Part shown: one piece after another, positions 17,890 through 47,518 of the stretch
Layout: each line of letters begins with the position of its first letter
Numbering within the stretch: position 1 is the stretch's first letter
Source: Pyrinomonadaceae bacterium
Lineage (GTDB): Bacteria > Acidobacteriota > Blastocatellia > Pyrinomonadales > Pyrinomonadaceae
NCBI GenBank assembly: GCA_014380365.1
Contig: JACMJZ010000012.1
Coordinates: 1 to 64,000, forward strand
Reading direction: 5' to 3'
Length of the DNA: 64,000 bases
Position numbers and translations under genes: made by a program
Notes under the pieces: model-generated
Told to the model about the DNA's origin: nothing
Database searches by the model: none
What the model saw: the letters and a program-made list of their open reading frames with translations, nothing else

Positions 17890-17899
17890 TAAGTGATAG

Positions 17900-18179
17900 T
17901 GATGAGTAATGAGTGATGAGTCATGAGCGGTGTTTAGAGAGATTTCTGATCCCGGCGGAACGCATCACGCCTGCGCTCCACTGAAAGCCGTAGTCCCCCG
18001 AGTATTTTTCCAACCTCCGTAGCTTGTGACCTGAGTGCCTCGAAGGTTGGCGCGTTTAGATATCCAACGTCAAGAGCCACGTACAACTGCGTTCGGTCTG
18101 ATTTGATCTTTCAGGCTAAAGTCTCGAGCAAAGTTTCCCTGGCTGATAATTTGCACTCATTACTCATCACTCATCACTC
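17900..18179. repeat. Inverted heptamer arrays flanking a four-helix-bundle relic
   Basis: Four consecutive 7-bp units TGATGAG, TAATGAG, TGATGAG and TCATGAG (17900-17927) are mirrored by CTCATTA, CTCATCA and CTCATCA (18156-18176) on the other side. Between them lies the decayed four-helix-bundle gene. The right array also encodes the final residues VMSDE and stop of the UDP-xylose synthase homologue. Confidence 0.8.
17934..18156 (-). pseudogene. Decayed four-helix-bundle (S23/IVS-type) protein
   Basis: Reading the minus strand from 18156 gives VQIISQGNFARDFSLKDQIR, the start of helix 2 of this family. After a one-base frame shift it continues RTQLYVALDVGYLNAPTFEA, then LRSQATEVGKILGGLR, and reaches a TAA at 17934. 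The expected middle part (the SIxxNIAEG region) is missing between DQIR and RTQLYVAL, so an internal deletion with frameshift is the simplest explanation. The first helix is also missing. An intact relative lies at 45981-46391. Family assignment comes from the characteristic QGNFARDF and RTQLYVALDVGYL segments. Confidence 0.7.
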
Positions 18180-19098
18180 GCTTCTTGAAATCCGCCACAG
18201 TCTTCACCAGTCCCTCGCTGAGCGGTATGGTTGGATTCCAGTCGAGCAGTGTCTGTGCGCGTGAGATGTCAGGCTTTCGTTGTTTTGGATCGTCCTCGGG
18301 CAATGGCAAATATTTGACTCCGGAATCGGAGCCGCACGTTTTCACGACCTGCTCCGCCAACTCCTTAATCGTAAACTCACCCGGGTTGCCGAGATTGACA
18401 GGATCGTGCACGTCCTCGACGTTCATCAGTCGAATCAAAGCTTCCACCAGGTCGTCGACATAACAGAAGGAACGTGTCTGATCGCCGGCGCCATAAAGTG
18501 TCAACGGCTCACCGCGCAATGCCTGAACAATGAAATTAGAAACCACGCGGCCATCGTCCTCCAGCATGCGCGGGCCGTAGGTATTGAAGATTCGCGCGAT
18601 CCGAGTGTCCACGTGGTTTTGCCGGTGGTAGTCCATCATCAATGTTTCGGCGATTCGTTTTCCTTCGTCGTAGCACGAACGCAGACCGATTGGGTTAACG
18701 TTGCCCCAGTACGCTTCGGGCTGGGGATGCACCAACGGGTCGCCGTACACTTCAGACGTCGAGGCCTGGAGGATACGCGCGCGAACGCGTTTCGCGAGTC
18801 CAAGCATATTTATCATCCCCATCACGCTCGTTTTCACCGTCTTCACCGGATTGTATTGATAGTGAATGGGCGAAGCGGGACACGCGAGGTTATAAATCTG
18901 ATCGACTTCGAGAAGAATAGGTTCGATCACGTCGTGACGAATCAGCTCGAAGCGATGGTTGTCCATCAGCTTCACGATGTTCACGCGTCGACCGGTAAAG
19001 AAATTGTCGAGACACAAAACGTCGTGCCCCTCATTTAAGAGCCGTTCACAAAGATGTGAACCAATAAAACCAGCCCCGCCAGTTACAAGTATTCGCAT
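18160..19098 (-). CDS. UDP-glucuronate decarboxylase (UDP-xylose synthase) homologue
   Basis: This 312-residue short-chain dehydrogenase/epimerase makes UDP-xylose from UDP-glucuronate in the UXS family. The Rossmann GxxGxxG motif is [20 protein letters not shown], the STSEVYGDP block and the catalytic RSCYDEGKR (Tyr-x3-Lys) follow, with the family-typical [10 protein letters not shown] and [13 protein letters not shown]. The sequence is closer to UXS than to generic epimerases because of [16 protein letters not shown]. It supplies a nucleotide sugar to the glycosyltransferases of the locus. The last codons (VMSDE) are contributed by a heptamer repeat array. Confidence 0.9.
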
Positions 19099-19227: not shown

Positions 19228-21117
19228 CTAATTCCGCAGCCTTCGAACTGCGAGATTTCCCATGTAAAGCACATCCATCCTGGTCTTCAGGAAGCAGTCG
19301 ATAGCGTGTCTTGGTGTGCAGACGATTGGTTCGTTTTCATTAAACGACGTATTCAGCACAACCGGGACGCCGGTTAACTCATTAAAGTCAGAAATCAATT
19401 GGTAGTAGCGCGGGTTGAGCTCGCGCGAAACGGTTTGCAAACGGCCCGAGCCATCGACGTGAGTGACCGCCGGAATTTCCGCGCGCCGCTCCTCGCGCAC
19501 CTGGTACACCATCAACATTGTGGGCGCTGGATGCTCCTGTTCAAAATAGTCCGCCGTGCGTTCCTCCAGGATCGAGGGCGCGAAGGGACGGAACGGCTCA
19601 CGCTTCTTAATTCTCTCGTTCAATATTTCCTTCATGTCAGCGCGCCGCGGATCGACAACGATCGAACGATTGCCAAGTGCGCGTGGCCCAAACTCCATCC
19701 GTCCCTGAAACCATCCAACCACGAGTCCATCAGCAATGTCCTGCGCCGCCCGTTTTGTAACACCGTCGTCGTCGAACGTTTCAAAAGTCAGGTCGCTGGC
19801 GACGAGTTCAGCGCGAATCTCCTGGTCAGTAAACTCCGGACCAGTGTAGGCGCCGAGCATCACTTCGTGGCGCGGCCGCTTCAGCTTTCCGTTGTAAATC
19901 TCATAACAAACCCCCAACGCGGTGCCGCTGTCCCCGGCTGCCGGCTGTATGAAGACCCGGCGAAACGGTGTGTTGAGCAAAATCTTGCCATTCATCACCG
20001 AGTTGTAGGCCACGCCGCCTGATAGTCCCAAGTCGGTGAGGCCAGTCTGCTCGTGTAGATGATTGAGAATGTGGAACCCAACCTCTTCCAGACGAAGTTG
20101 CAAGCTGGCGGCAATATCGCGCTCGCGATCGCCGATTGCAGACCCGGGTTGACGCGCCGGGCCAAACGTGTCGGCGTAACTGTCGGAATAAATCCTGCCA
20201 ATCACCGGTGAGCCCTGGTCCCAGGTCATGTCAACGCCTTCAGCGTGGTGGCGAAAATAGTCGAGGTTGAGTCGAAAGTGACCGTGCGCCTCGGTGCGAA
20301 TAATGGAGCGAAACTCTTCGATGAAACGCGGCTGCCCATAAGGCGCGAGGCCCATTATCTTTCCTTCATCGCCGTAGTAAGGAAAGCCCAGGAACTGCGT
20401 CGTCGCGGTGTAGACAATGCCGGTCGAATGGGGATACTCCACCTCGCCCAGCACGTCGATTGAGTTCTCTTCCCCCGCCGCCCACATGGTGGAGACGAAA
20501 TCGCCGAAGCCGTCAATGGAGAGAAGCGCGGCCCGTTCAAACGGCGAAACGAAAAACGAGCTCGCAAGGTGCGCGCGATGATGTTCGACGTTGTGAAACT
20601 GCGCCCGCAGACTCTTTGGTGAAACACCGAGCGCCGTCGCTATGGCATCTTTCAGATCGCGCACCTTGGCCGCGTTGCCCAAACGATCCTTGACCTGCCG
20701 AAATATACCGAGCCCCTGGCCATTGCCTTCGCCGTTACCTGGGACCGCGGGCAGCTTGCCCACTTCTGCTTCATCAACGACATCTAATCCTAAATCATTG
20801 ACCCTATCCGCTTGCCTGCCGCCCGCCGTCTGCCGTCTGCCGCTGCCCCCTGCCAACTGCCTCGCCGCGCGACCCGCTGCAAACAAAACCTTCTTATGCA
20901 GGTGCGCGGACGGATCGCGAGAAATGCCGATGTGTTCAACTTCTTCAATGCCGATGCCGGCAGTTTTCAGGCAGTAACGGATTGACTCCGCGGGAAAGCC
21001 GGCGCAATGCTTCACGCGATTGAACCGCTCCTCCTCAACCGCCGCGATTAGTTTGCCGTCTTTGATGATCGCCGCCGCAGCGTCACCGTGATAGGCGTTT
21101 ATTCCAAGGACGTACAT
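19228..21117 (-). CDS. NodU/CmcH-family carbamoyltransferase
   Basis: This enzyme O-carbamoylates a sugar using carbamoyl phosphate and ATP; here the likely substrate is a sugar of the surface polymer. The N-terminal ASKHA domain starts MYVLGINAYHGDAAAAI and continues EEERFNRVKH. HHRAHLASSFFVSPFE, LSIDGFGDF and GLSGGVAYNSVMNG follow. The C-terminal part carries GWFQGRMEFGPRALGNRSI and KREPFRPFAPS. The 629 residues exceed the usual 570-610 because residues about 83-150 contain an insertion. Part of it (GGSGRRQTAGGRQA) is encoded by a heptamer array at 20825-20866. The enzyme core is intact on both sides of the insertion. Confidence 0.92.
   Translation of the reverse strand: MYVLGINAYHGDAAAAIIKDGKLIAAVEEERFNRVKHCAGFPAESIRYCLKTAGIGIEEVEHIGISRDPSAHLHKKVLFAAGRAARQLAGGSGRRQTAGGRQADRVNDLGLDVVDEAEVGKLPAVPGNGEGNGQGLGIFRQVKDRLGNAAKVRDLKDAIATALGVSPKSLRAQFHNVEHHRAHLASSFFVSPFERAALLSIDGFGDFVSTMWAAGEENSIDVLGEVEYPHSTGIVYTATTQFLGFPYYGDEGKIMGLAPYGQPRFIEEFRSIIRTEAHGHFRLNLDYFRHHAEGVDMTWDQGSPVIGRIYSDSYADTFGPARQPGSAIGDRERDIAASLQLRLEEVGFHILNHLHEQTGLTDLGLSGGVAYNSVMNGKILLNTPFRRVFIQPAAGDSGTALGVCYEIYNGKLKRPRHEVMLGAYTGPEFTDQEIRAELVASDLTFETFDDDGVTKRAAQDIADGLVVGWFQGRMEFGPRALGNRSIVVDPRRADMKEILNERIKKREPFRPFAPSILEERTADYFEQEHPAPTMLMVYQVREERRAEIPAVTHVDGSGRLQTVSRELNPRYYQLISDFNELTGVPVVLNTSFNENEPIVCTPRHAIDCFLKTRMDVLYMGNLAVRRLRN
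20825..20866. repeat. In-frame heptamer array inside the carbamoyltransferase gene
   Basis: Six units in 7-bp phase: GCCGTCT, GCCGTCT, GCCGCTG, CCCCCTG, CCAACTG and CCTCGCC. The 42 bases are divisible by three and keep the frame. They encode a Gly/Arg/Gln-rich loop not expected in the family. Confidence 0.7.
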
Positions 21118-21221: not shown

Positions 21222-23288
21222 TTAGTTGTCCAAATGCTTTCTGGCCCATTCATTCAAGACGTAAAGGCTCCACGGCCGCGACCAGCTCGTCTTGCCGTCC
21301 AGATAGTCCTGCCAGATTTTTCGCACGCTCTCCGCATCCATCGCCTCCTGCAATGCCGGAGAGAGTTCGGCCAGCCCGCCTTGAATGCGGTCGCGCAGAG
21401 GGCCGCGCAACCACTCGGCCCAGGGGAAAGTGAACCCGCGCTTTGTTTGGTTCACAACCTCCGCAGGCAAGAGGTCGCCGAGCGCGGCAACCAGCAAAGC
21501 TTTCGGCACGCCCTTGCGTAACTTCATTGCCTGCGGCAGAGAAGTCACAAACTCGACCAGTCGGTGATCCAGGAAAGGCACGCGGACTTCGAGCGAATGC
21601 GCCATGCTCATCGAATCCGTGTCCCGCAATAGCGTGTTTACCAGATACGACTGAATCTCCATGCACGACACCGCCGCGAAAGAGTCCAGTTCCCTTGCCT
21701 GCTCCACACTAGCCCCAAGCCACTCCCACCAGAGAGGGGGAACAGCAGGCTTCTGGCCGGTCATCAACCCTGAAACTTGCGCCGGAGTGAAAAGCGCCCG
21801 GCCGAAGTAAAACGGATCCGGCAAGGCGTCCGGCGCATTCCACAGGGCCGAAAGCTTTCGCGTTGCATCACCATGCAAAAAACGACCACCGGTGGCCGCA
21901 ATTGAAGATGCCATCGCTGATCTCACCGCGCCCGGAACGTGCGCACCCGCCGTCGCCAACCGCTGATATTTCGGCGTTCGTGGAAACGTGCTGTAGCCGC
22001 CAAATACTTCATCGCCGCCCAGCCCGGAAAGCGTCACCTTGAGTCCTGCCTGCCTTGCGCTCATTGAAACAAAATAAGTGTTAATGCCATCCATCGACGG
22101 TTGGTCGAGCGCGCCGACGGCCTCGTCCAAACGCCTGACCATATCATCACCGCTTAGCGTCACTTCCTGATGCGTCGTCCCCAAATCTATGGCTGTTCGG
22201 CGTGCGATTGCCGCTTCGCTAAACTCTTTCTCCGCAAACGCCACTGTGAACGTGTGAATGCCGGAGTCCTCGCGACTCGCAAGCGCGGCGAGGGAGGTGG
22301 AGTCGATCCCGCCGCTCAGAAACACTCCCACCGGCACATCGGAAACAAGGTGACTGCGAACACTCTCCTCCAGCAAGCTGCGCACGCGCGCGGCGGTGTC
22401 GCGTGCATTATCTTTACCGTGACCGTTACTTGAGCGACTGGCCGTCGGTCCATTATTAGACGCCGCTTGTCGGTCCCTGGACATCTGGGAGATGCGAGCT
22501 CCTATCCTCCAAAAGGGTTTGGGCTCGACAGCGCTTCTCGCACCCAGCGGGACCGTCATCGTATGACCGGGTGGCAGCGACAGCACCCCCGCAACCAGCG
22601 TCATCGGCTCGCCTACCGATCCAAACAGGAGATAACTCTCGAGCGCAGCCCGCGAGAGGAGCTTGGGCACGATCCGACTCGCCAGCAACGTCCGAACTTC
22701 CGAAGCGAAAACGAATTTTCCAGTTCCCGACCGCTGATTGCTGACTGCTGATTGCTGACCTCCGACCTCCGACCTCTGATCTCTGACCTCTGCGTAATAC
22801 AGCGGCTTGATTCCCATCCGGTCGCGCGCCAGAAACAAGATCCCCTCCTGACCTGCCGACCGCTCCTGCCGACTGCTCCTCTCTTCCCGCCGCCGATCAT
22901 AAACCGCAAACGCGAACATTCCCTGCAAACGCTCCACGCACTCAACTCCCCACTCCTCAAAAGCGTGGGCTACGACTTCCGAATCAGATCGTGTTTGGAA
23001 AGCGTGGCCCAGCGTCGCCAGCTCCTCGCGTAACTCTCGGAAGTTATAAATCTCCCCATTGAGCACCGCCCCTACTGTTCCAGCCTCGTTGAAGATCGGC
23101 TGGTGTCCACCCTCCACGTCGATGATGCTCAGGCGTCGCATTCCCAGTGCGAGACGCCCGGGGCCATCGCTGGCGAGATACCCCTCGTCGTCAGGCCCGC
23201 GATGCAGCATCGTCGGCGTCATCCGCCGCACCAACGCCTCCGCATCCGGAGCATCACTCCAATCAACTACTCCACAAATGCCGCACAT
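21222..23288 (-). CDS. asnB: Asparagine synthase-like glutamine amidotransferase
   Basis: This 688-residue AsnB-family protein has an N-terminal nucleophile glutaminase domain (MCGICGVVDW with Cys2; LHRGPDDEG; LNGEIYNFRELR). Its synthase domain has the PP-loop LSGGIDST near residue 326 and LSGLGGDEVFGGY. It either makes asparagine or amidates a glycan; in polysaccharide loci the latter is common, and that is an inference. Two stretches of the glutaminase domain are foreign-looking. RREERSSRQERSAGQEG (coded near 22845-22900) and RDQRSEVGGQQSAVSNQRSG (coded around 22733-22788) lie between conserved segments and derive from heptamer arrays. Typical length is about 630, so these inserts explain the excess. 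Confidence 0.9.
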   Translation of the reverse strand: MCGICGVVDWSDAPDAEALVRRMTPTMLHRGPDDEGYLASDGPGRLALGMRRLSIIDVEGGHQPIFNEAGTVGAVLNGEIYNFRELREELATLGHAFQTRSDSEVVAHAFEEWGVECVERLQGMFAFAVYDRRREERSSRQERSAGQEGILFLARDRMGIKPLYYAEVRDQRSEVGGQQSAVSNQRSGTGKFVFASEVRTLLASRIVPKLLSRAALESYLLFGSVGEPMTLVAGVLSLPPGHTMTVPLGARSAVEPKPFWRIGARISQMSRDRQAASNNGPTASRSSNGHGKDNARDTAARVRSLLEESVRSHLVSDVPVGVFLSGGIDSTSLAALASREDSGIHTFTVAFAEKEFSEAAIARRTAIDLGTTHQEVTLSGDDMVRRLDEAVGALDQPSMDGINTYFVSMSARQAGLKVTLSGLGGDEVFGGYSTFPRTPKYQRLATAGAHVPGAVRSAMASSIAATGGRFLHGDATRKLSALWNAPDALPDPFYFGRALFTPAQVSGLMTGQKPAVPPLWWEWLGASVEQARELDSFAAVSCMEIQSYLVNTLLRDTDSMSMAHSLEVRVPFLDHRLVEFVTSLPQAMKLRKGVPKALLVAALGDLLPAEVVNQTKRGFTFPWAEWLRGPLRDRIQGGLAELSPALQEAMDAESVRKIWQDYLDGKTSWSRPWSLYVLNEWARKHLDN
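22733..22788. repeat. Eight-unit heptamer array inside asnB
   Basis: Eight contiguous units in perfect 7-bp phase: GCTGATT, GCTGACT, GCTGATT, GCTGACC, TCCGACC, TCCGACC, TCTGATC and TCTGACC. It is translated as part of a Ser/Gln/Arg-rich loop in the glutaminase domain. Confidence 0.85.
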
Positions 23289-23293
23289 AAGAT

Positions 23294-23410
23294 CAGTCGC
23301 CAGTCGGCAGCCGCCAGTTTCCAGTCATCGCTCTAATGCCTCAGGTCCGGTCTCCGGTCGCCAGCGCCAAAACTGGAAACCGCCGACTGCCGACTGCCGA
23401 CTGCCGACTG
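23294..23410. repeat. Inverted heptamer arrays at the asnB / glycosyltransferase junction
   Basis: Left: CAGTCGC, CAGTCGG, CAGCCGC, CAGTTTC, CAGTCAT (23294-23328). Right: four exact CCGACTG units (23383-23410), opposite orientation, preceded by AACTGGAAACCG, which mirrors CAGTTTCCAG. The right arm encodes SAVGSRQSAVSS at the C-terminus of the glycosyltransferase ending at 23333. Confidence 0.8.
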
Positions 23411-24595
23411 AAGACTCGCATACAGCGTCTCCATCGCCGCGACCGGTTCTTCCCATGAAAGACCCCCCGCTACCTCGGCGCAACCAGCGCGCAGTTGGAC
23501 CGAAAGCACTTCATCTTCAAGAAGTCGTTTCATCCCTCTGTGCAATGCCTCAACGTCATACGGAACGACGAGGCCGGCTTTGCCTTCAACGAGGGGAGCG
23601 ATCCCACATTGATCCGTCACCAGCACAGGGGTGCCGCAGGCAATCGACTCCGCCGCAGCATTGCCAAAACTTTCATACCGCGACGGCAAGACAAAAAGGT
23701 CGGCATCCACCAGAGCCTCAAGTTTTGCCTTCCCATAGAGAGGACCGGTTAAGGTCACTCGGTTGCCGACACCAAACTCCTCGATCAATTTGCGAACGGT
23801 CTGGGCACAGCCGTCGAAGTCGTCAGGGCCGGCTATCACCAGGTGTGTTTCCGCATCAAGCCTCGCAAACGCTTTCACCAGGAGGTCCAAACCTTTGATG
23901 AATGAGAGGCGACCGAGAAACAATATCAGCGGCGTCTGCTCCCTGATCCCAAGCTTGGCCCGGAACGCCCCGCGCGCGGGTAACGATTCAAACTCACTAA
24001 GGTCGATTCCGTTGCGTCGCAGGACAATCTTCGCTGCCGCAATTCCGCCCTCGATCAATTCGTCGCGTTCAGTCTCGGAAGTTGCAATGATCGCGTTGGC
24101 GCCCTTAAACAGTGAATCGCCAACGAGCTTTCGGTAAAGACGCTTCTTCTGGCGACTGCGAACTTTCGACCCGAACATGCCGAGTGGCTCAAGCACATAA
24201 GGAATTCCGTAACGACGGCAAAACCATCCTGCTGTGGAACCGATTAGATCATAGAGCCCGTAGATATGTACGACGTCATACTCGCGCAAGCGTCGCGTGC
24301 AGAAACGCAGGATGCGAGGATTGACCGTGGTCGCCCGGTAGTTTCGCATGGTCGGCAGGTAGACCGTCTCAACGCCATGATCCTGCGCTTCCCATCCCCA
24401 GGCGCTCGGGCTTCGCGACCAATCGGTTAAATCCGCCAGTTTAGTTTCGCCATCCGTCTCGCCTCTGTCCGCCGTCAACACCGTCACCTCGTGCCCTCGA
24501 CCCGCCAGCGCCTTAGCGATCGCACGCACCTTCGCCGGCGGCCCCCCCTTGCTGAGATAAGGGTAGTAAGTCTGCGTAATCTTCAGGATGCGCAT
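23333..24595 (-). CDS. Glycosyltransferase family 4 protein
   Basis: This 420-residue GT-B enzyme starts MRILKITQTYYPYLSKGGPP with the donor-proximal GHEVTVLTADRGE. The C-terminal domain carries PLILFLGRLSFIKGLDLLVKA and the E-x7-E element in ESFGNAAAESIACGTPVLVTD, so it is a retaining GT4. The substrate is unknown. The last 25 residues or so (QSAVGSRQSAVSSFGAGDRR) come from a heptamer repeat and are unlike any glycosyltransferase tail. It follows the next GT4 gene on the same strand with a 21-base gap. Confidence 0.88.
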   Translation of the reverse strand: MRILKITQTYYPYLSKGGPPAKVRAIAKALAGRGHEVTVLTADRGETDGETKLADLTDWSRSPSAWGWEAQDHGVETVYLPTMRNYRATTVNPRILRFCTRRLREYDVVHIYGLYDLIGSTAGWFCRRYGIPYVLEPLGMFGSKVRSRQKKRLYRKLVGDSLFKGANAIIATSETERDELIEGGIAAAKIVLRRNGIDLSEFESLPARGAFRAKLGIREQTPLILFLGRLSFIKGLDLLVKAFARLDAETHLVIAGPDDFDGCAQTVRKLIEEFGVGNRVTLTGPLYGKAKLEALVDADLFVLPSRYESFGNAAAESIACGTPVLVTDQCGIAPLVEGKAGLVVPYDVEALHRGMKRLLEDEVLSVQLRAGCAEVAGGLSWEEPVAAMETLYASLQSAVGSRQSAVSSFGAGDRRPDLRH

Positions 24596-40156: not shown

Positions 40157-41495
40157 GACGTTCGAATTTCGCCCGGTTGGCGTCTGGGTCGGCAGTCTTT
40201 GGAGCGCTGGACCATGCCCAGTTAGCAGGAATGCGCATTCCTCCGGTCTCTCGAATGATTAGCGGTGGAGTGGTGGGTCCGGGCAGCACCTCGATCTGCG
40301 CGCAACCGGAGAGATAATCCAAACCGCTGTTATTTCCTGAGCGCGCTCCGACGTCCAGCGAGTAGCGGCCAGGCTGAATTTGTAACTCGGGGATATTAGC
40401 CTCGAGTATTCCTACATGATCTTTGGGCAAGTCTGTCTGGTCCTCCAGCAGGTCGCTATCAACAGACATCACTCGAATTCCTTCGACTGACGAAAAACCA
40501 AATCCAAACCCCACCTTCTCTACAGTCGCGGTTGTCTCAAACTCGATCCTCACCCTTAGCGGCTCACCATGAAAGACGGGAGTGCCTCCGTTGAATTCGA
40601 CGCTTCTAATTTTCAATCGTGCTCCGCCATCCCCATGCCGGGGTACATCTACAAGATCTATCGATGAGCCGGATTGTTCGGTGGTGGTTCTGAGGTAGCT
40701 ATCGACAATAGAGGCCGACGCACCGCGATCAACGATCTTCCCTTCGTTGAGCCAAATCACTTCGGTGCAGAGACTTCGGATAGCGCCCATGTTGTGGCTC
40801 ACGAAGAGGACGGTTCGGCCACCGTGGGCTACCTCGCCTATTTTGCCAAGGCACTTCTTTTGAAACGCGGCGTCGCCAACGGCCAGCACTTCGTCGATTA
40901 TCAGAATCTCGGGCTCGAGGTGCGCGGCGACGGCGAAGGCCAGGCGCACGTACATCCCACTTGAATAACGCTTCACCGGTGTGTCGATAAATTTCTCAAC
41001 TTCGGCGAAGGCGACGATTTCGTCAAACTTTGTTTCCACCTCGGCTTTGCGCATGCCGAGTATGGCGGCGTTCAAATAGATATTTTCCCTGCCGGTTAAC
41101 TCAGGGTGGAAGCCGGTGCCGACTTCGAGCAGCGAACCTACGCGGCCATGAATCCTGGCGTGACCGCGCGTGGGTTTGGTGATGCGCGAAAGTATTTTGA
41201 GCAGGGTGCTCTTCCCTGCCCCGTTGCGCCCAATGATGCCGACCACTTCACCGCGCTTCACTTCAAAGGAGACATCGTCGAGGGCCCAGAAAGTCGACGG
41301 ACCGACGACGGACGACGGATGACCGTTGTTGCGACCGTCAGCGGTCAACGGTCTTCGGTCGATGGCCGACCGTAGTCGGCGGAATGGTGCTGCTGCCGCG
41401 TCGGTGATGACGTCGCGCAAGGCCTTATACGACTCGCGCTCGCCGATACGGTATTGCTTGCTCAGCCCTTCGCAGCGAATGGCGATTTCAGACAT
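40143..41495 (-). CDS. wzt: ABC transporter ATP-binding protein with Wzt-type C-terminal domain
   Basis: The ATPase of the polysaccharide exporter, about 450 residues. Walker A is GRNGAGKST, the signature is RYSSGMYVRLAFA, Walker B EILIIDEVLAVGD, and the switch His is in FVSHNMGAIRSLC. After the ATPase a beta-rich C-terminal domain (LKIRSVEFNGGTPVF onward) resembles the Wzt carbohydrate-binding domain, which recognises the finished polymer. Start ATG 41495 (MSEIAIRCEGLSKQYRIG). Between residues about 44 and 70 an insertion (AIDRRPLTADGRNNGHPSSV) interrupts the usual region before WALDDVSFEV; it derives from an inverted heptamer array. It is 521 bases from wzm, unusually far. Confidence 0.92.
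   Translation of the reverse strand: MSEIAIRCEGLSKQYRIGERESYKALRDVITDAAAAPFRRLRSAIDRRPLTADGRNNGHPSSVVGPSTFWALDDVSFEVKRGEVVGIIGRNGAGKSTLLKILSRITKPTRGHARIHGRVGSLLEVGTGFHPELTGRENIYLNAAILGMRKAEVETKFDEIVAFAEVEKFIDTPVKRYSSGMYVRLAFAVAAHLEPEILIIDEVLAVGDAAFQKKCLGKIGEVAHGGRTVLFVSHNMGAIRSLCTEVIWLNEGKIVDRGASASIVDSYLRTTTEQSGSSIDLVDVPRHGDGGARLKIRSVEFNGGTPVFHGEPLRVRIEFETTATVEKVGFGFGFSSVEGIRVMSVDSDLLEDQTDLPKDHVGILEANIPELQIQPGRYSLDVGARSGNNSGLDYLSGCAQIEVLPGPTTPPLIIRETGGMRIPANWAWSSAPKTADPDANRAKFERHAIN
41294..41378. repeat. Inverted heptamer arrays inserted in wzt
   Basis: Left units (in 7-bp phase: CGACGGA, CCGACGA, CGGACGA, CGGATGA) face right units (CGGTCAA, CGGTCTT, CGGTCGA, TGGCCGA and flanks) across a short TTGTTG centre. 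The right set reads CCGNNGA on the opposite strand, the same motif as the left. It is translated in frame as a 25-residue loop. Confidence 0.75.
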
Positions 41496-43517: not shown

Positions 43518-45953
43518 TCACGCTGACGCGCGCTCAGTCTCTTCTTCAACATCGCTCTTGTAGTACTGCGAGCCGTAGTAACGCTGGTAGTAGTAATAAT
43601 CGTGCGACTGTAGATTCACGTTGTTGAGCACGACACCAAAAATCTTGGCGCCCACATCGTTCAGGAGTTGCCGCGCGCGCTTCACCACGTGGCGCGAACT
43701 CTTGCCGCCGTGCACAACCAACAATACGCCGTCGACTATCGATGCGATCAAAACACCATCAGTGAATGAGGTGACCGGCGGCGAATCCACCACCACGTGA
43801 TTAAAATTCGCCTGCAAGGCTGCCATCAACCGGCGCATCTGATCTGACCCCAACAACTCAGCGGGATTAGGAGGAATAGGACCGGAAGTCAGCACTGATA
43901 ATCCAGAGACTTCGTCCTTCGAGACCAAAGCCAGCATGTCGGCCTCTGACATGTCACTGGACAAAATCGAACTCAGTCCAGCGCGATCCGACAGTCCGAA
44001 GATTGAACGGAGACGCGGTCGCCGCATATCCGCGTCGATGATTACGACGCTGGCGCCCGTCTGTCCCAAACTGACGGCCGTATTCACCGCCGTCGTCGTC
44101 TTCCCTTCTCCCGGCAAGCTCGAAGTGATCAGCAACGATCTAGGCGCCCGGCCGGCAGTGGATAACAAAACTGAAGTGCGGAGGTGTCGATACGCTTCAG
44201 CCAGCGGCGAACGGCCGTCGACATTCATCAACAACTCCGCGTTGTCCGAATGGTACCCATTACGCTTTTGTAATCCGCCCGGCGCGGCCAACAGCCTGCG
44301 ACGACCTGAGGCAGCGGCGGAAGGTATCACAGCCAACGCGGGTAGATGCAGCAGCCGTTCAACTTCATCGGTAGAGTGAACTGTGTCATCGAGGTACTCG
44401 AGGAAAAGCGCAAACCCAACTCCGAGTCCGAGCGACAGAAACAGCGCCATGAAAACTGTTCTCGTGCGATTAGGCCCAATCGGACCCTCGGGCGCCATGG
44501 CGTAATCGATAATCGAAATATTGTTTGGCTTGCTGGCCATGATCACATCGTTCTCTTTGGAACGCTGTAGCAGGTTGTCGAGCAACGTCTTATTAGTCTG
44601 AATCTCCTGTTGAATGATTCGGTAGTTAATCGCCGCTTCGTTTTGCGACCCTGTTTCGCCACGCTGTTGTTCAAACAACTTCCGCAATGCCTGCTCGCGC
44701 GCGAACGACTGGCGGTAATTCGTTTCCAGATTCATTAAAAGCGTGTTGCTCTTACGACTGCGAACCTCTTTCACTTGCCGATCGAGTTCAGCAATCTGCG
44801 TGTCAATCTCTTTCACTTCCGGCGCTTCCTCAGTCGCATCCACCATTAATTGCGCCCGTTTTTGGCGAAGGTCGGCCAGTTTCGTCTCAGACTCATTTGC
44901 CTTCAGCTGGTCTGCCTCGGTAAGGGCCGTGGCGGCGCCGGGTCGTTTCGCCTCATTGAACCTGGCTTCCGCTTCGATGCGCGCGCCCTCAGCTTCTCCC
45001 AGCTGTTTGTTAAGCGAGCCCAGACGCTCCACTACTGTGTTCTGGCTGGCGTCGAGAGTGAGAATGCGGTTGTTCTTTGCGTAGTTGACCAGCCGCTCTT
45101 CGTCGGTCCGAATTGTTTGCTGTAGTTCGGCAATGCGTTTCTGAAGGACGGTGCCGGTGTTCGTGTTGGTTTCCGTCTTTCTTTCAAGATTATTAAAGAC
45201 GTAGGTTTCCGCAATTGCGTTGACGACTTTCGCGGCAACTTCGGGGTCCGTGTGGGTGTAACTGATATCGATTAGCCGTGTCTCCTTGTATAACCCGCGC
45301 GTTTCCTTAACCGGATCAACTTTCAAGCCGCCGAGAATAGCTCCCACATAAGGCTGAAGGCGTTTGGCTTCGGCGCGATCGTCGTGGGAAGTTGCCGCCG
45401 GCACTGTCGCACCAAGTGGTAGATCGTCAGGTAGTTTGTCTGCGACAGTGGGCGGTTCGGCTTTTCCGAAACCCGCCATCTGCTTAATGGTCTGCCATGT
45501 CGACCGCTTCTGCGCCGAGCTTCCCTTAAAAAAGTTGGGATTGTGCTCGAGGTCAAGTGTCTTTACGACTCGGCGCATAAGGCCTGGGCTCACGAGTATT
45601 TGCAGTTGGGTATTGAAATAGACGGGGTCGTTTGCAGGACCGAAGACGTAGGGCGTCTTTCCGACGAGCGCGGCATTGTTTTCCAGATCAACCTGGACGC
45701 GCGCGCCAGCCTGATAAATGTCCGGCTTGCGGGCCACGTAAATAATCGACAGCATCGTGATGAGCGCCATAATGCTGATCACCAGCCATAGACGCTTCCG
45801 CACGGCGCGCCAGTAGTCGAGTAGGTTGACTTCGGTTTCCGCATTTGGGTCAACGCCATAGTTGTAGCTATGCGGGGTGCTCGAGGAGTCGCTCGATCTT
45901 TCGATTGAGGTCAGATCAGAGTCGCTCTTAACTAATTCACGCGATGCTTTCAT
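43518..45953 (-). CDS. wzc: Polysaccharide chain-length regulator and tyrosine autokinase (Wzc-like)
   Basis: An 811-residue inner-membrane protein with a Wzz domain flanked by two membrane segments (LWLVISIMALITMLSIIYVA near residue 60; TVFMALFLSLGLGVGFALFL near 500), joined by a coiled-coil region. The cytoplasmic kinase domain holds Walker A SSLPGEGKTTTAVNTA near residue 610, Walker A' VVIIDADMRRPRL, Walker B VVVDSPP and the Tyr-rich tail HDYYYYQRYYGSQYY used for autophosphorylation. It controls export and chain length with Wza. GAAGGAAGAG precedes the ATG. This is Wzy/Wzc-type machinery alongside an ABC exporter. Confidence 0.94.
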   Translation of the reverse strand: MKASRELVKSDSDLTSIERSSDSSSTPHSYNYGVDPNAETEVNLLDYWRAVRKRLWLVISIMALITMLSIIYVARKPDIYQAGARVQVDLENNAALVGKTPYVFGPANDPVYFNTQLQILVSPGLMRRVVKTLDLEHNPNFFKGSSAQKRSTWQTIKQMAGFGKAEPPTVADKLPDDLPLGATVPAATSHDDRAEAKRLQPYVGAILGGLKVDPVKETRGLYKETRLIDISYTHTDPEVAAKVVNAIAETYVFNNLERKTETNTNTGTVLQKRIAELQQTIRTDEERLVNYAKNNRILTLDASQNTVVERLGSLNKQLGEAEGARIEAEARFNEAKRPGAATALTEADQLKANESETKLADLRQKRAQLMVDATEEAPEVKEIDTQIAELDRQVKEVRSRKSNTLLMNLETNYRQSFAREQALRKLFEQQRGETGSQNEAAINYRIIQQEIQTNKTLLDNLLQRSKENDVIMASKPNNISIIDYAMAPEGPIGPNRTRTVFMALFLSLGLGVGFALFLEYLDDTVHSTDEVERLLHLPALAVIPSAAASGRRRLLAAPGGLQKRNGYHSDNAELLMNVDGRSPLAEAYRHLRTSVLLSTAGRAPRSLLITSSLPGEGKTTTAVNTAVSLGQTGASVVIIDADMRRPRLRSIFGLSDRAGLSSILSSDMSEADMLALVSKDEVSGLSVLTSGPIPPNPAELLGSDQMRRLMAALQANFNHVVVDSPPVTSFTDGVLIASIVDGVLLVVHGGKSSRHVVKRARQLLNDVGAKIFGVVLNNVNLQSHDYYYYQRYYGSQYYKSDVEEETERASA

Positions 45954-45980: not shown

Positions 45981-46391
45981 CTACGACGGACGGACGACCG
46001 GCGACCGTCGGGCAGACAGATCCTCGCTAGCGTTGGGGTGACTCAGGAAACGTTTCATAGCCTGAACTTTAGCAAACAGTTTTGAGCCAAGTTCACGAGC
46101 GGCCCGCAGATCTTCCACCGTGACGTATTTTCTGCGCTCAATAACGTCCTGACACGCAACCGTTTCGATTAGAGACCGCAAAGCCATGCCCAGGAACCTC
46201 GATTGTTCCGCATCGCTTTGACTAGTTGAACCTTCAGCGATGTTTAGCACGATCGAGGTTCCGGCTCGAGTAATTTGCGACTTCAGATTGAAATCTTCGC
46301 TCCTGGGCAGCTTTTCAGCGAGCGAATAGATCAGATCGATATACTCGAGCGCGAGTTTGTAAATCTCGAGGTTCTGAAATTTGTAAGTCAT
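45981..46391 (-). CDS. Four-helix-bundle protein (S23/23S rRNA IVS family)
   Basis: A 136-residue helical protein starting MTYKFQNLEIYKLALEYIDL. The family signature appears as SQITRAGTSIVLNIAEGSTS followed by SRFLGMALRSLIETVACQDV. The last residues (ARRSPVVRPS) and 14 possible residues before the chosen ATG are encoded by the flanking inverted repeats, which is why the start was set at 46391 rather than 46433. Members are known from intervening sequences of 23S rRNA, as stand-alone genes and as diversity-generating retroelement accessory proteins; their function is unclear. It interrupts the wza-wzc pair. Confidence 0.87.
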   Translation of the reverse strand: MTYKFQNLEIYKLALEYIDLIYSLAEKLPRSEDFNLKSQITRAGTSIVLNIAEGSTSQSDAEQSRFLGMALRSLIETVACQDVIERRKYVTVEDLRAARELGSKLFAKVQAMKRFLSHPNASEDLSARRSPVVRPS

Positions 46392-46445
46392 TATGACGAT
46401 AACCGACGATGGTAGCCCGCGGTCGCCGGTCATCCGTCGACGGTC
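45984..46445. mobile_element. IVS-like element: inverted heptamer repeats around a four-helix-bundle gene
   Basis: Left arm 45984-46013 contains GACGGACGACCGGCGACCG; right arm 46415-46445 on the opposite strand has GACGGATGACCGGCGACCG. Thus about 25 bases at each end are reverse complements with a few differences. They are built of 7-bp-spaced units. The only gene inside is the four-helix-bundle gene, so the unit could be an IVS-like insertion between wza and wzc. No transposase is present; mobility is inferred. Confidence 0.5.
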
Positions 46446-46450
46446 AGTCC

Positions 46451-47518
46451 TTAAGGAATGATCCTTATGGGCAGGTTTGAAATGCTCTGCCCCGCGCCTC
46501 CAATCAAAGTGCGCAAAAGAGCCTTGCCGGATGATGTTTGTACCTCAATGATGTCGTTTGCCACGAGTGCAACATCCTCGGCGCGCTTCTTTTCGATCGC
46601 CGACAAGTCAACGAGAATTTCCGTTCTTGCCGAAGAACCCGGCTCCTGCCTGACGATTCTGATCTTGTCTTTCTTGCTGTCCTGCTTAACGCCTCCCGCC
46701 ATTGCCACCGCGCGCGATAGCGTGATTGGCTCTTTGAGCGGGATCGTCAAAGGCGTGTACACATTCCCTACGACATATACCTGATCGGCGTCAGGCAGCG
46801 TGATGACATCACCCGCTTCAAGATATGGATTGGCTTTCGGATCGCCGCGCAACGTATCGCTCAATCGGTAGCTGGAAAAGGCCTCGGATGAGTCGCGGCC
46901 GGCAGTCCGGCAAACTGAACCCTGCGCCGAATGGACTATGTTGATAGTCTGTCCCGCCTTGGCAGTCGGACCTTTTGCGTAGCTCAACAAGTCGAGCAGA
47001 CGAACCCGCCTTTGTAGCTCAAAGCGGCTTTGGTCGTTGACTGCACCGATGATCGCTACCTGCTTCGAACGATACTCCTTAATAAATACGTCCACCTGCG
47101 GATTGCGGTAAAACTTGGTGTATTTACCGGCGATCTCTTTAGCAAGCTCTCCTTCAGTTTTGCATGCTGCCTGGATCTCCGTATCGATTAACGGCATGCG
47201 AATCATCCCGTTGCCTTCAACGCGAACGGCGTCGCGCGAAAGGTTGGCGCGGTTGAAGATGCGGATATCAAGCACATCGCCTGGCCCGATGCGGTAACGA
47301 TCGTCGGAATCACCTGATTCGACTGGGCCGGTGCTTTTCGCAACGGGCTGCCCGCCGGTTTGCCCAATGCCATTGTGGCCGGGCGCCTTGTCGACGGGCG
47401 TTTGAGCAGAGACTGCAATTGCGGCTGCGCAACAAACGGTTACTAATCTCAACAGCGCAGCGGGCCAACAACTCAATGCCTTCGTCGCCGCCTGATTGCC
47501 AAGTTTAATTCTTCTCAT
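46451..47518 (-). CDS. wza: Polysaccharide export outer-membrane protein (Wza-like)
   Basis: A 355-residue exported protein with a signal peptide (LLRLVTVCCAAAIAVSAQ). The Poly_export domain starts YRIGPGDVLDIRIFNRANL and continues RMPLIDTEIQAACKTEGELA. Two SLBB-type segments follow (KQVAIIGAVNDQSRFELQRR and VYVVGNVYTPLTIPLKEPIT, then AVAMAGGVKQ). No lipobox Cys is obvious at the cleavage site, unlike enteric Wza. It forms the outer-membrane exit channel with Wzc. AAGGAG precedes the ATG by about seven bases. Confidence 0.93.
   Translation of the reverse strand: MRRIKLGNQAATKALSCWPAALLRLVTVCCAAAIAVSAQTPVDKAPGHNGIGQTGGQPVAKSTGPVESGDSDDRYRIGPGDVLDIRIFNRANLSRDAVRVEGNGMIRMPLIDTEIQAACKTEGELAKEIAGKYTKFYRNPQVDVFIKEYRSKQVAIIGAVNDQSRFELQRRVRLLDLLSYAKGPTAKAGQTINIVHSAQGSVCRTAGRDSSEAFSSYRLSDTLRGDPKANPYLEAGDVITLPDADQVYVVGNVYTPLTIPLKEPITLSRAVAMAGGVKQDSKKDKIRIVRQEPGSSARTEILVDLSAIEKKRAEDVALVANDIIEVQTSSGKALLRTLIGGAGQSISNLPIRIIP

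Follow-up and report, generated by a model that had tools for sequence, protein, structure and literature searches.

Genes of the S23/IVP family (PF05635) were found to be linked to inverted arrays of 7-bp words, which come in distinct dialects, both in copies that hold the gene and in gene-less copies; this link is well supported. The reading we prefer, with a probability of roughly 0.55, is a widespread two-part element in which the S23 protein recognizes its own heptamer, with a REPIN–RAYT-like layout and an Avd-fold protein in the place of the transposase. The dialects, the gene-less hairpins and the match of these hairpins to the resident S23 gene are observations that go beyond the preliminary description of this DNA.

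In the window (the whole stretch of 64,000 nt that was analysed, from genome G000), the element and its neighbours are as follows.

45981–46391, minus strand: S23/IVP (PF05635) coding sequence, 136 aa counted from the domain-fitting ATG
46420–46438, minus strand: 5′ arm, GACGGATGACCGGCGACCG in the sense of the S23 gene, from inverted-repeat search and shuffles
45989–46007, minus strand: 3′ arm, reverse complement of the 5′ arm at 18 of 19 positions, coding for C-terminal residues of the ORF
46451–47518, minus strand: wza-like polysaccharide export gene, upstream neighbour
43518–45953, minus strand: wzc-like chain-length/tyrosine-kinase gene, downstream neighbour

The gene was assigned to PF05635 (23S_rRNA_IVP) with an E value of 1.2e-25 and 90.3 bits, where the Pfam gathering score used as cut-off is 33.8. 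It is codirectional with its neighbours, in which the domains Wzz, GNVR and ATPase (wzc-like) and Poly_export and SLBB (wza-like) were recognized. The 5′ arm starts 12 nt past the wza-like stop codon, and between the arms PF05635 is the sole gene, with no transposase. The inverted arms that had been noted around the S23 gene are real: they are 19 nt long, 95% complementary and separated by 412 nt, and their alignment score of 16.5 was beaten by none of 3000 dinucleotide shuffles of both flanks (maximum 15.5). Compared with cross-locus pairs from the S23 family, this score lies above the 95th percentile (12.0) and below the 99th (17.5). The preliminary description also held that the arms code for both ends of the ORF, which is so for the longest ORF (45981–46433, minus strand), as it starts within the 5′ arm and ends 5 nt past the 3′ arm; however, the start codon consistent with the domain is the ATG at 46391, which corresponds to residue 15 of the longest ORF (the Pfam match begins at residue 20), and this probably places the 5′ arm outside the gene. 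Similarly, arms built of units spaced by 7 bp were recovered across the family, but the period is weak in the window copy, where the left arm with its margins gave a lag-7 match of 0.47 and a lag-4 match of 0.53, and only the left arm passed the period filter (run 45983–46010). The heptamer nature of the window arms is clear only through comparison with the family.

For this comparison, the dialects were named, the hairpin examples picked and genes such as carA, sdhA and nadD identified by eye. Genome G000 has nine PF05635 matches, all with arm scores above the 95th percentile of a cross-locus control (1190 pairs) and with words that differ by gene (by eye, e.g. GATGCCA, AATCAGC, AGTTTCG, GGTGCCG, GGTCAGA and GTCAGTA). 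In a set of 35 loci from G000 and relatives, from which L032 and L037 were left out as short, 22 own arm pairs exceeded the 99th percentile of the 1190 cross-locus pairs, and L022, L028, L029 and L031, with scores of about 9, are counter-examples. A scan of genome contigs was then evaluated for the best 80 of 586 confirmed relatives, a selection that leans to the query's subfamily and includes, by titles, many phyla and one archaeon. Among the 79 of these 80 that could be tested (L133 was left out before the arm test), and measured against 1975 cross-locus pairs, 44 had an own arm pair above the 99th percentile and 62 one above the 95th, which the other 17 did not exceed. In the same best 80, a lag-7 tandem run was present close to the gene (within ∼200 nt) in 54 of 79 flanks on the upstream side and in 55 of 77 on the downstream side, as opposed to 4 of 72 and 5 of 71 far flanks (1.2 kb), and lags 5, 6, 8 and 9 were seen beside the gene at 0–7 loci. 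As a dialect sometimes recurs at unrelated loci, the cross-locus controls err on the conservative side.

Inverted arms were likewise found in Gammaproteobacteria, where 21 of 27 loci (L407, L409 and L410 being left out) exceeded the 95th percentile, 11 of them also the 99th, and six did not exceed the 95th; L386 and L415 are counter-examples in this set. Heptamer runs on both sides of the gene were present at 19 of 26 loci on viral contigs, after 9 of 35 had been set aside as near-duplicates or partial matches, and at four of five loci on cyanobacterial plasmids; a single S23 query of phage records at 1e-6 gave no match. Two S23 copies on Calothrix plasmids were considered as recent transpositions, a reading that was rejected since neighbouring genes are common to both, which looks like segmental duplication. 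A loose word core, A-G-N-N-R-N-Y, was seen in the 5′ arm at 95 of 134 loci (3.39 bits versus 2.67–2.90 for permuted columns). That other S23 genes might lack inverted arms had been raised earlier; most do carry inverted heptamer arms, though not all.

Many S23 elements sit in operon junctions straight after a stop codon, such as wza–wzc and, in Rhizobium and Bosea, nuoC–nuoD; translated ends read by eye added carA–carB in Ramlibacter, sdhA–sdhB in Capnocytophaga and a site upstream of nadD in Flavobacterium. In 95 of 111 cases the gene preceding S23 has the same orientation as S23, compared with 187 of 262 other neighbouring gene pairs (crude ORF caller). For wza–wzc, 39 relatives had a wza match and 12 junctions were compared, the window's included. 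This is a comparison that the preliminary description had called for, and an S23 unit is present in some relatives and absent from others: of the 11 other genomes, six have no room for the gene, and five, all relatives within the genus, have an S23 gene at the same place and in the same orientation. These five genes belong to another PF05635 subfamily, have GAATTTCG-type arms and showed no tblastn similarity to the window protein at 1e-3. The six S23-free junctions are ∼30 to 200 nt long, and by eye one of them has a one-sided heptamer array and another a very short array. At one S23-free wza–wzc junction (L040), a ∼20-nt inverted repeat of GAGCGGTAGCG type was noticed by eye, which we take to resemble a REP-type palindrome.

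At nuoC–nuoD, 98 genomes had a nuoD match, and 90 junctions were read, to which L100 and L117 were added because they carry S23. The resulting 92 junctions comprise 21 with an S23 gene (19 when only the 90 junctions drawn regardless of S23 are counted), 45 short ones (≤120 nt) and 26 with other content, in most of which an ORF other than S23 was recognized by eye. A number of genomes, among them L229, L234, L236 and L238, have by eye another small ORF in a junction of ∼420–470 nt, and this site seems open to insertion. In L224, heptamer arms on both sides make up a 178-nt gene-less junction where relatives have the gene, and no S23 similarity was found between these arms. Empty and filled junctions are too diverged to fix exact ends or a target-site duplication. 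In Rhizobium leguminosarum (G039, L195/L145), the S23 gene has an in-frame TGA.

Across sites, 111 S23 pairs were at least 60% identical, and 29 of the 60 listed share no flank within ∼1.3 kb; eight of these 60 are one locus fetched twice. Three pairs from very distant taxa (L140/L147, L134/L207 and L102/L202) have similar genes on both flanks. Judged from these sequences, some junctions may have been colonized repeatedly, or the genes may have moved together. The earlier proposal of a gene-plus-ends unit lying between protein genes was supported, as such units were found in many phyla, present or absent at one junction, and free of transposase.

The nuoC–nuoD copies allowed arm agreement to be followed at one site. 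Words differ by species in the 21 copies (GTGAGTA, GCGAATA, GGCAATA, GGCAGTC, GTCGGTC, GTGAATG and more), and the two arms of one copy agree with a mean score of 17.8, compared with 8.7 across species (reached in 0 of 10,000 permutations); L259, with an arm score of 6.5, is a clear exception. Word distance followed S23 distance (Mantel r = 0.42, 0 of 9999) and, below this, host distance (r = 0.17, 324 of 9999), and S23 protein distance itself followed host (Nuo) distance in part (r = 0.38, 12 of 9999). Word and protein are weakly linked across 95 loci of all kinds (Spearman 0.135, 2 of 2000), and the link resides in close pairs: mean word distance was 1.3 for the 8 pairs below 30% protein distance, 2.4 for the 48 pairs at 30–40% and 3.3–3.6 beyond. 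No near-identical S23 copies were noticed at separate sites of one genome which, together with the S23 distances partly tracking those of the host, suggests that spread of the S23 gene is slow or old.

Heptamer arrays are also found away from intact S23 genes. In the window, the following were identified.

41295–41369, no strand: gene-less heptamer array and short hairpin in the dialect of the window element (CGACGGATGACCG...), inverted arms 41313–41328 and 41346–41361, 88%
23294–23420, no strand: gene-less heptamer hairpin in AGTCGGC dialect, run plus inverted arms
17894–18187, minus strand: decayed S23 element with AGTGATG arms, S23 remnants at 18153–18085 and 18095–17997

The first of these scored 14.5 against the arms of the window element, where the maximum of 1000 random pieces was 11.5. 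Further heptamer runs were seen at 20811–20855 (GCCGTCT-like) and 22726–22795 (CTGATTG/CTCTGAC-like), with no paired inverted arm of ≥14 nt in the stretches checked. The decayed element retains at best 33 residues that are 79% identical to L023, a longer S23 gene (127 residues) from the genus of the window genome, which lies at the same site between arms of the same word, with collinear flanks (90% over 305 residues and 73% over 258). One gene-poor hairpin, at least, therefore arose from an S23 element by deletion. S23 remnants were sought inside six candidate gene-less hairpins of G000 and were convincing in one, that of the window.

In 824 kb of G000, 60 strong tandem runs were counted at lag 7 and 44 at its harmonic, lag 14; other lags gave 0 or 1 (lags 4, 5, 8, 10 and 11) or 3 to 5 (lags 6, 9, 12, 13 and 15). 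Runs formed 24 inverted pairs within 2 kb, two around intact S23 genes and one around the decayed one, and the G-rich arm comes first in 20 of the 24. Among 27 listed gene-less hairpins, 25 are outside called ORFs, five being between convergent and two between divergent ORFs. Strong runs were denser in genomes with more S23 genes, as seen in a comparison of 16 genomes from several phyla (Spearman 0.76, p = 0.0006; for G230 the S23 count, at least four, came from another query): there were 22 per 100 kb at 17 S23 genes and 6.5 to 7.3 in four genomes with 8 to 13, and no strong runs were present in S23-free Escherichia coli (50 kb), G024 and G028. Off this trend are G045, G046 and G027, with four, three and two S23 genes and no strong run in 100, 100 and 135 kb, respectively, and G022, with no S23 match and one heptamer hairpin.

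In several genomes, gene-less arrays bear the word of the resident S23 gene. Ramlibacter G042 has one S23 match, with AGGGNNT arms. The triplet pattern AGGGNNTAGGGNNTAGGG gave 77+78 matches in this genome and none in five others, and the reversed pattern gave none; the matches listed fall into 22 AGGGNNT sites, one of which is the S23 gene, and 19 of which have matches on both strands, in all cases with the plus-strand matches first. Triplets of GGCARTN numbered 47+34 in Bosea G041 (one S23 match, GGCAGTC) and 4+4 in Rhizobium tropici G040 (one S23 match, GGCAATA), in the latter at two sites away from the gene, and were absent from four other genomes. A comparison of 14 genomes, which rests on the nuoC–nuoD S23 only (the total number of S23 genes is known for G039, one), gave GTGAATG triplets in G110 (45+44) and G081 (2+5), the two whose nuoC–nuoD S23 has this word; in G081, five of the seven matches are at the S23 gene itself. 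Of the 12 genomes with no GTGAATG matches, eight have an empty nuoC–nuoD junction. GYGAATA triplets, the word of the nuoC–nuoD S23 of G057, occur in that genome 3+16 times at three sites. In G110, GCGAATA is also present (7+28), although its nuoC–nuoD S23 has GTGAATG; on contig C1 of this 8.4-Mb genome both words are numerous, some in long arrays.

In G000, the dialect of the window element recurs in 3 of 82 other runs (824 kb), one of which is the array at 41295–41369, ∼4.6 kb away. GTCCAAA and AGTGATG are common in G000, yet none of its nine S23 matches is an intact gene with these words. Gene-less hairpins that match the ends of gene copies were found in G042, G041, G040 and G110/G081, and for the window copy in three arrays.

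The S23 protein of the window was modelled as a monomer (pLDDT 93.8), and the predicted four-helix bundle matched chain 2gsc_B with a TM score of 0.95 by target; 2rld also matched. Structures 2gsc (XCC0516) and 2rld (BT_0352) have five chains each. A weaker match was to Avd of diversity-generating retroelements (4dwl_D, TM 0.87 by target length, E 0.049), and PF05635 (2GSC) and Avd (4DWL) appear homologous according to PMC10053308; the domain is also listed in a CRISPR survey, in a figure legend of PMC10910872. Avd and the window S23 have this fold in common, but S23 differs in having no linked reverse transcriptase, nor is one needed genome-wide, as G017 has no reverse transcriptase match.

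In REPIN–RAYT systems, a gene with hairpin ends is accompanied by many like gene-less hairpins in the genome, and the RAYT is a Y1 transposase. An S23 gene with hairpin ends and gene-less hairpins of the same type resembles this system (PMC3116915), but the protein is a four-helix one, and the repeats are 7-bp tandem words with dialects. It also differs from an insertion sequence with its MITEs, as the full S23 copy has no transposase. In the model proposed, one part of the element would be the S23/IVP gene between inverted arrays of a 7-bp word, and the other would be gene-less inverted arrays of the same word elsewhere in the genome. The S23 protein would recognize its own heptamer as a repeated DNA site (an iteron), and arrays with the right word would be propagated or maintained, both in cis and in trans, via a host or borrowed enzyme. 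Settling in operon junctions after a stop codon would do little harm and leave the gene readable from the host promoter, and internal deletion would give gene-poor or gene-less hairpins. We infer that S23 binds the heptamer, acts at the level of DNA and drives its spread, the gene being read from the operon promoter; that S23 recognizes the word and drives its spread is our best inference.

The arms might instead act in RNA, pairing in the operon transcript to form a hairpin that serves as a substrate of RNase III or a binding site of S23, in which case gene-less hairpins in other mRNAs would constitute an S23 regulon. The RNA of the window element is predicted to close as a stem around the whole gene (z −6.07, reached in 0 of 100 shuffles), the upstream gene is mostly on the same strand, and the Avd fold is present in an RNA–protein complex (8ube). 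Furthermore, RNase III cleaves RNA of the Coxiella burnetii intervening sequence (IVS) in vitro (PMC4990558), and TAACTGA heptamers have been proposed as post-transcriptional sites (PMC4679880). If selection maintained the arms for base pairing in the RNA, however, mismatches that leave G-U pairs would be expected to be tolerated more, and among arm mismatches at 126 loci, 154 were G-U-compatible and 174 incompatible (p = 0.29, from a test run without a positive control on a known RNA stem). An RNA stem under selection and the earlier idea of a processed RNA thus gained no support. The arms also agree in word more than in unit order, as would be the case for repeated binding sites and not for an aligned stem: the score was 22.6 versus 20.0 with shuffled units (103 loci), a small excess that is biased upward because the segment is the best alignment. 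Copying between arms unit by unit, for which this excess is weak, was set aside. Also against an RNA-level role are the gene-less hairpins placed between convergent ORFs (5 of the 27 listed) or divergent ORFs (two). Neither the wobble nor the unit-order result is decisive, but both are more readily explained by repeated protein sites in DNA than by an RNA stem, and we regard an RNA-level role as unlikely.

It is also unlikely that the hairpins are a transposable family moved in trans by another enzyme, for example a Y1/RAYT-type transposase, with S23 as a passenger or modulator. We know of no catalytic activity of S23 proteins, and over 29 genomes S23 counts correlate with those of Y1_Tnp (Spearman 0.51, p = 0.005) and of reverse transcriptase (0.47, p = 0.011). 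Against this, G011 and G015 have S23 and no Y1_Tnp match, and G022 has ten Y1 matches and no S23, so that a Y1 transposase as required partner is not supported, though the counts correlate. Reverse transcriptase as a required partner was rejected, since G017, listed as 100% complete and with nine S23 genes and 6.5 runs per 100 kb, has none; the sole reverse transcriptase match of G000 is on another contig (C5). A passenger role, moreover, leaves unexplained why gene-less arrays bear the dialect of the only S23 gene.

Polymerase slippage producing ordinary heptameric repeats that lie near S23 genes by chance is very improbable: it is a published proposal for the bacterial heptamer excess (cited in PMC4692102 and PMC4679880), but inverted pairs surround one gene family in many phyla, mostly with one polarity, the 60 lag-7 runs of G000 stand against 0–5 at every other lag from 4 to 15 bar the harmonic, runs are missing from the S23-free genomes named above, and gene-less arrays match the S23 gene in dialect. 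Equally improbable is an ordinary resident operon gene of vertical descent with arms that are a plain terminator or mRNA stabilizer, for which the five genus relatives with S23 at wza–wzc and the partial correlation of S23 and Nuo distances could be cited, but those five have another subfamily and other arms, six relatives have no S23, and related S23 genes lie at unrelated sites.

The element can be set beside the IVSs of 23S rRNA. The Coxiella burnetii 23S IVS has an S23 gene between complementary ends, a patchy presence and, before the ORF, two or three tandem heptamers (GACAGAT), depending on the strain (PMC4990558); these tandem copies reinforce the tie to 23S rRNA IVSs that had been drawn from the gene family. 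Common to both are the S23 gene and complementary ends able to close the unit. The window element differs in lying between wza-like and wzc-like protein genes, and the S23 elements described here vary in word by copy and are accompanied by gene-less hairpins in the genome. No large-subunit rRNA was found in six S23 loci checked with Rfam.

Intergenic 7-nt tandem arrays like those described here have been reported as GGGAATC in Xanthomonas and GGGGAYT in Nostoc (PMC4692102, with 70 and 75 convergent heptamer pairs in two Xanthomonas genomes) and as TAACTGA in Beggiatoaceae (PMC4679880). The causes proposed there are slippage, G-quadruplex effects and regulation, and the main texts of the two papers contain neither "S23" nor "four helix". 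Among the open-access full texts searched, the Coxiella IVS study alone was found to join S23 and heptamers, in one element; an earlier report elsewhere is possible. The nearest dialect match found was L408, an S23 gene with GGGAATC arms and with 58% identity to Xanthomonas XCC0516 in an alignment of 62 residues, and two S23 genes from Nostoc plasmids carry GGGAACA, a G-rich word, in their arms.

S23-linked gene-less hairpins may explain the 7-base repeats of bacterial genomes, in most of which heptamers are the most abundant repeat category according to a survey cited by PMC4679880. A broader proposal, to which we give somewhat less than even odds, is that there is a class of transposase-free bacterial mobile repeats for which S23/IVP proteins serve as cognate factors, each specific to its dialect, with heptamer iterons recognized by an Avd-fold pentamer, spread in trans as hairpins and coevolution of protein and word; this class would then be the source of over-represented 7-bp repeats (STRR, GGGAATC and TAACTGA), and the rRNA IVSs would be the members that dwell in rRNA.

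A companion gene family makes bacterial heptamers a testable protein–repeat system, and the S23 proteins, first met in 23S IVSs, gain a candidate target. As the dialects supply a natural series of protein and word pairs, a recognition code might be readable from them. If S23 does drive the spread of its word, the element would be mobile though it lacks a transposase, and it would represent Avd-related machinery that operates independently of the Avd reverse transcriptase.
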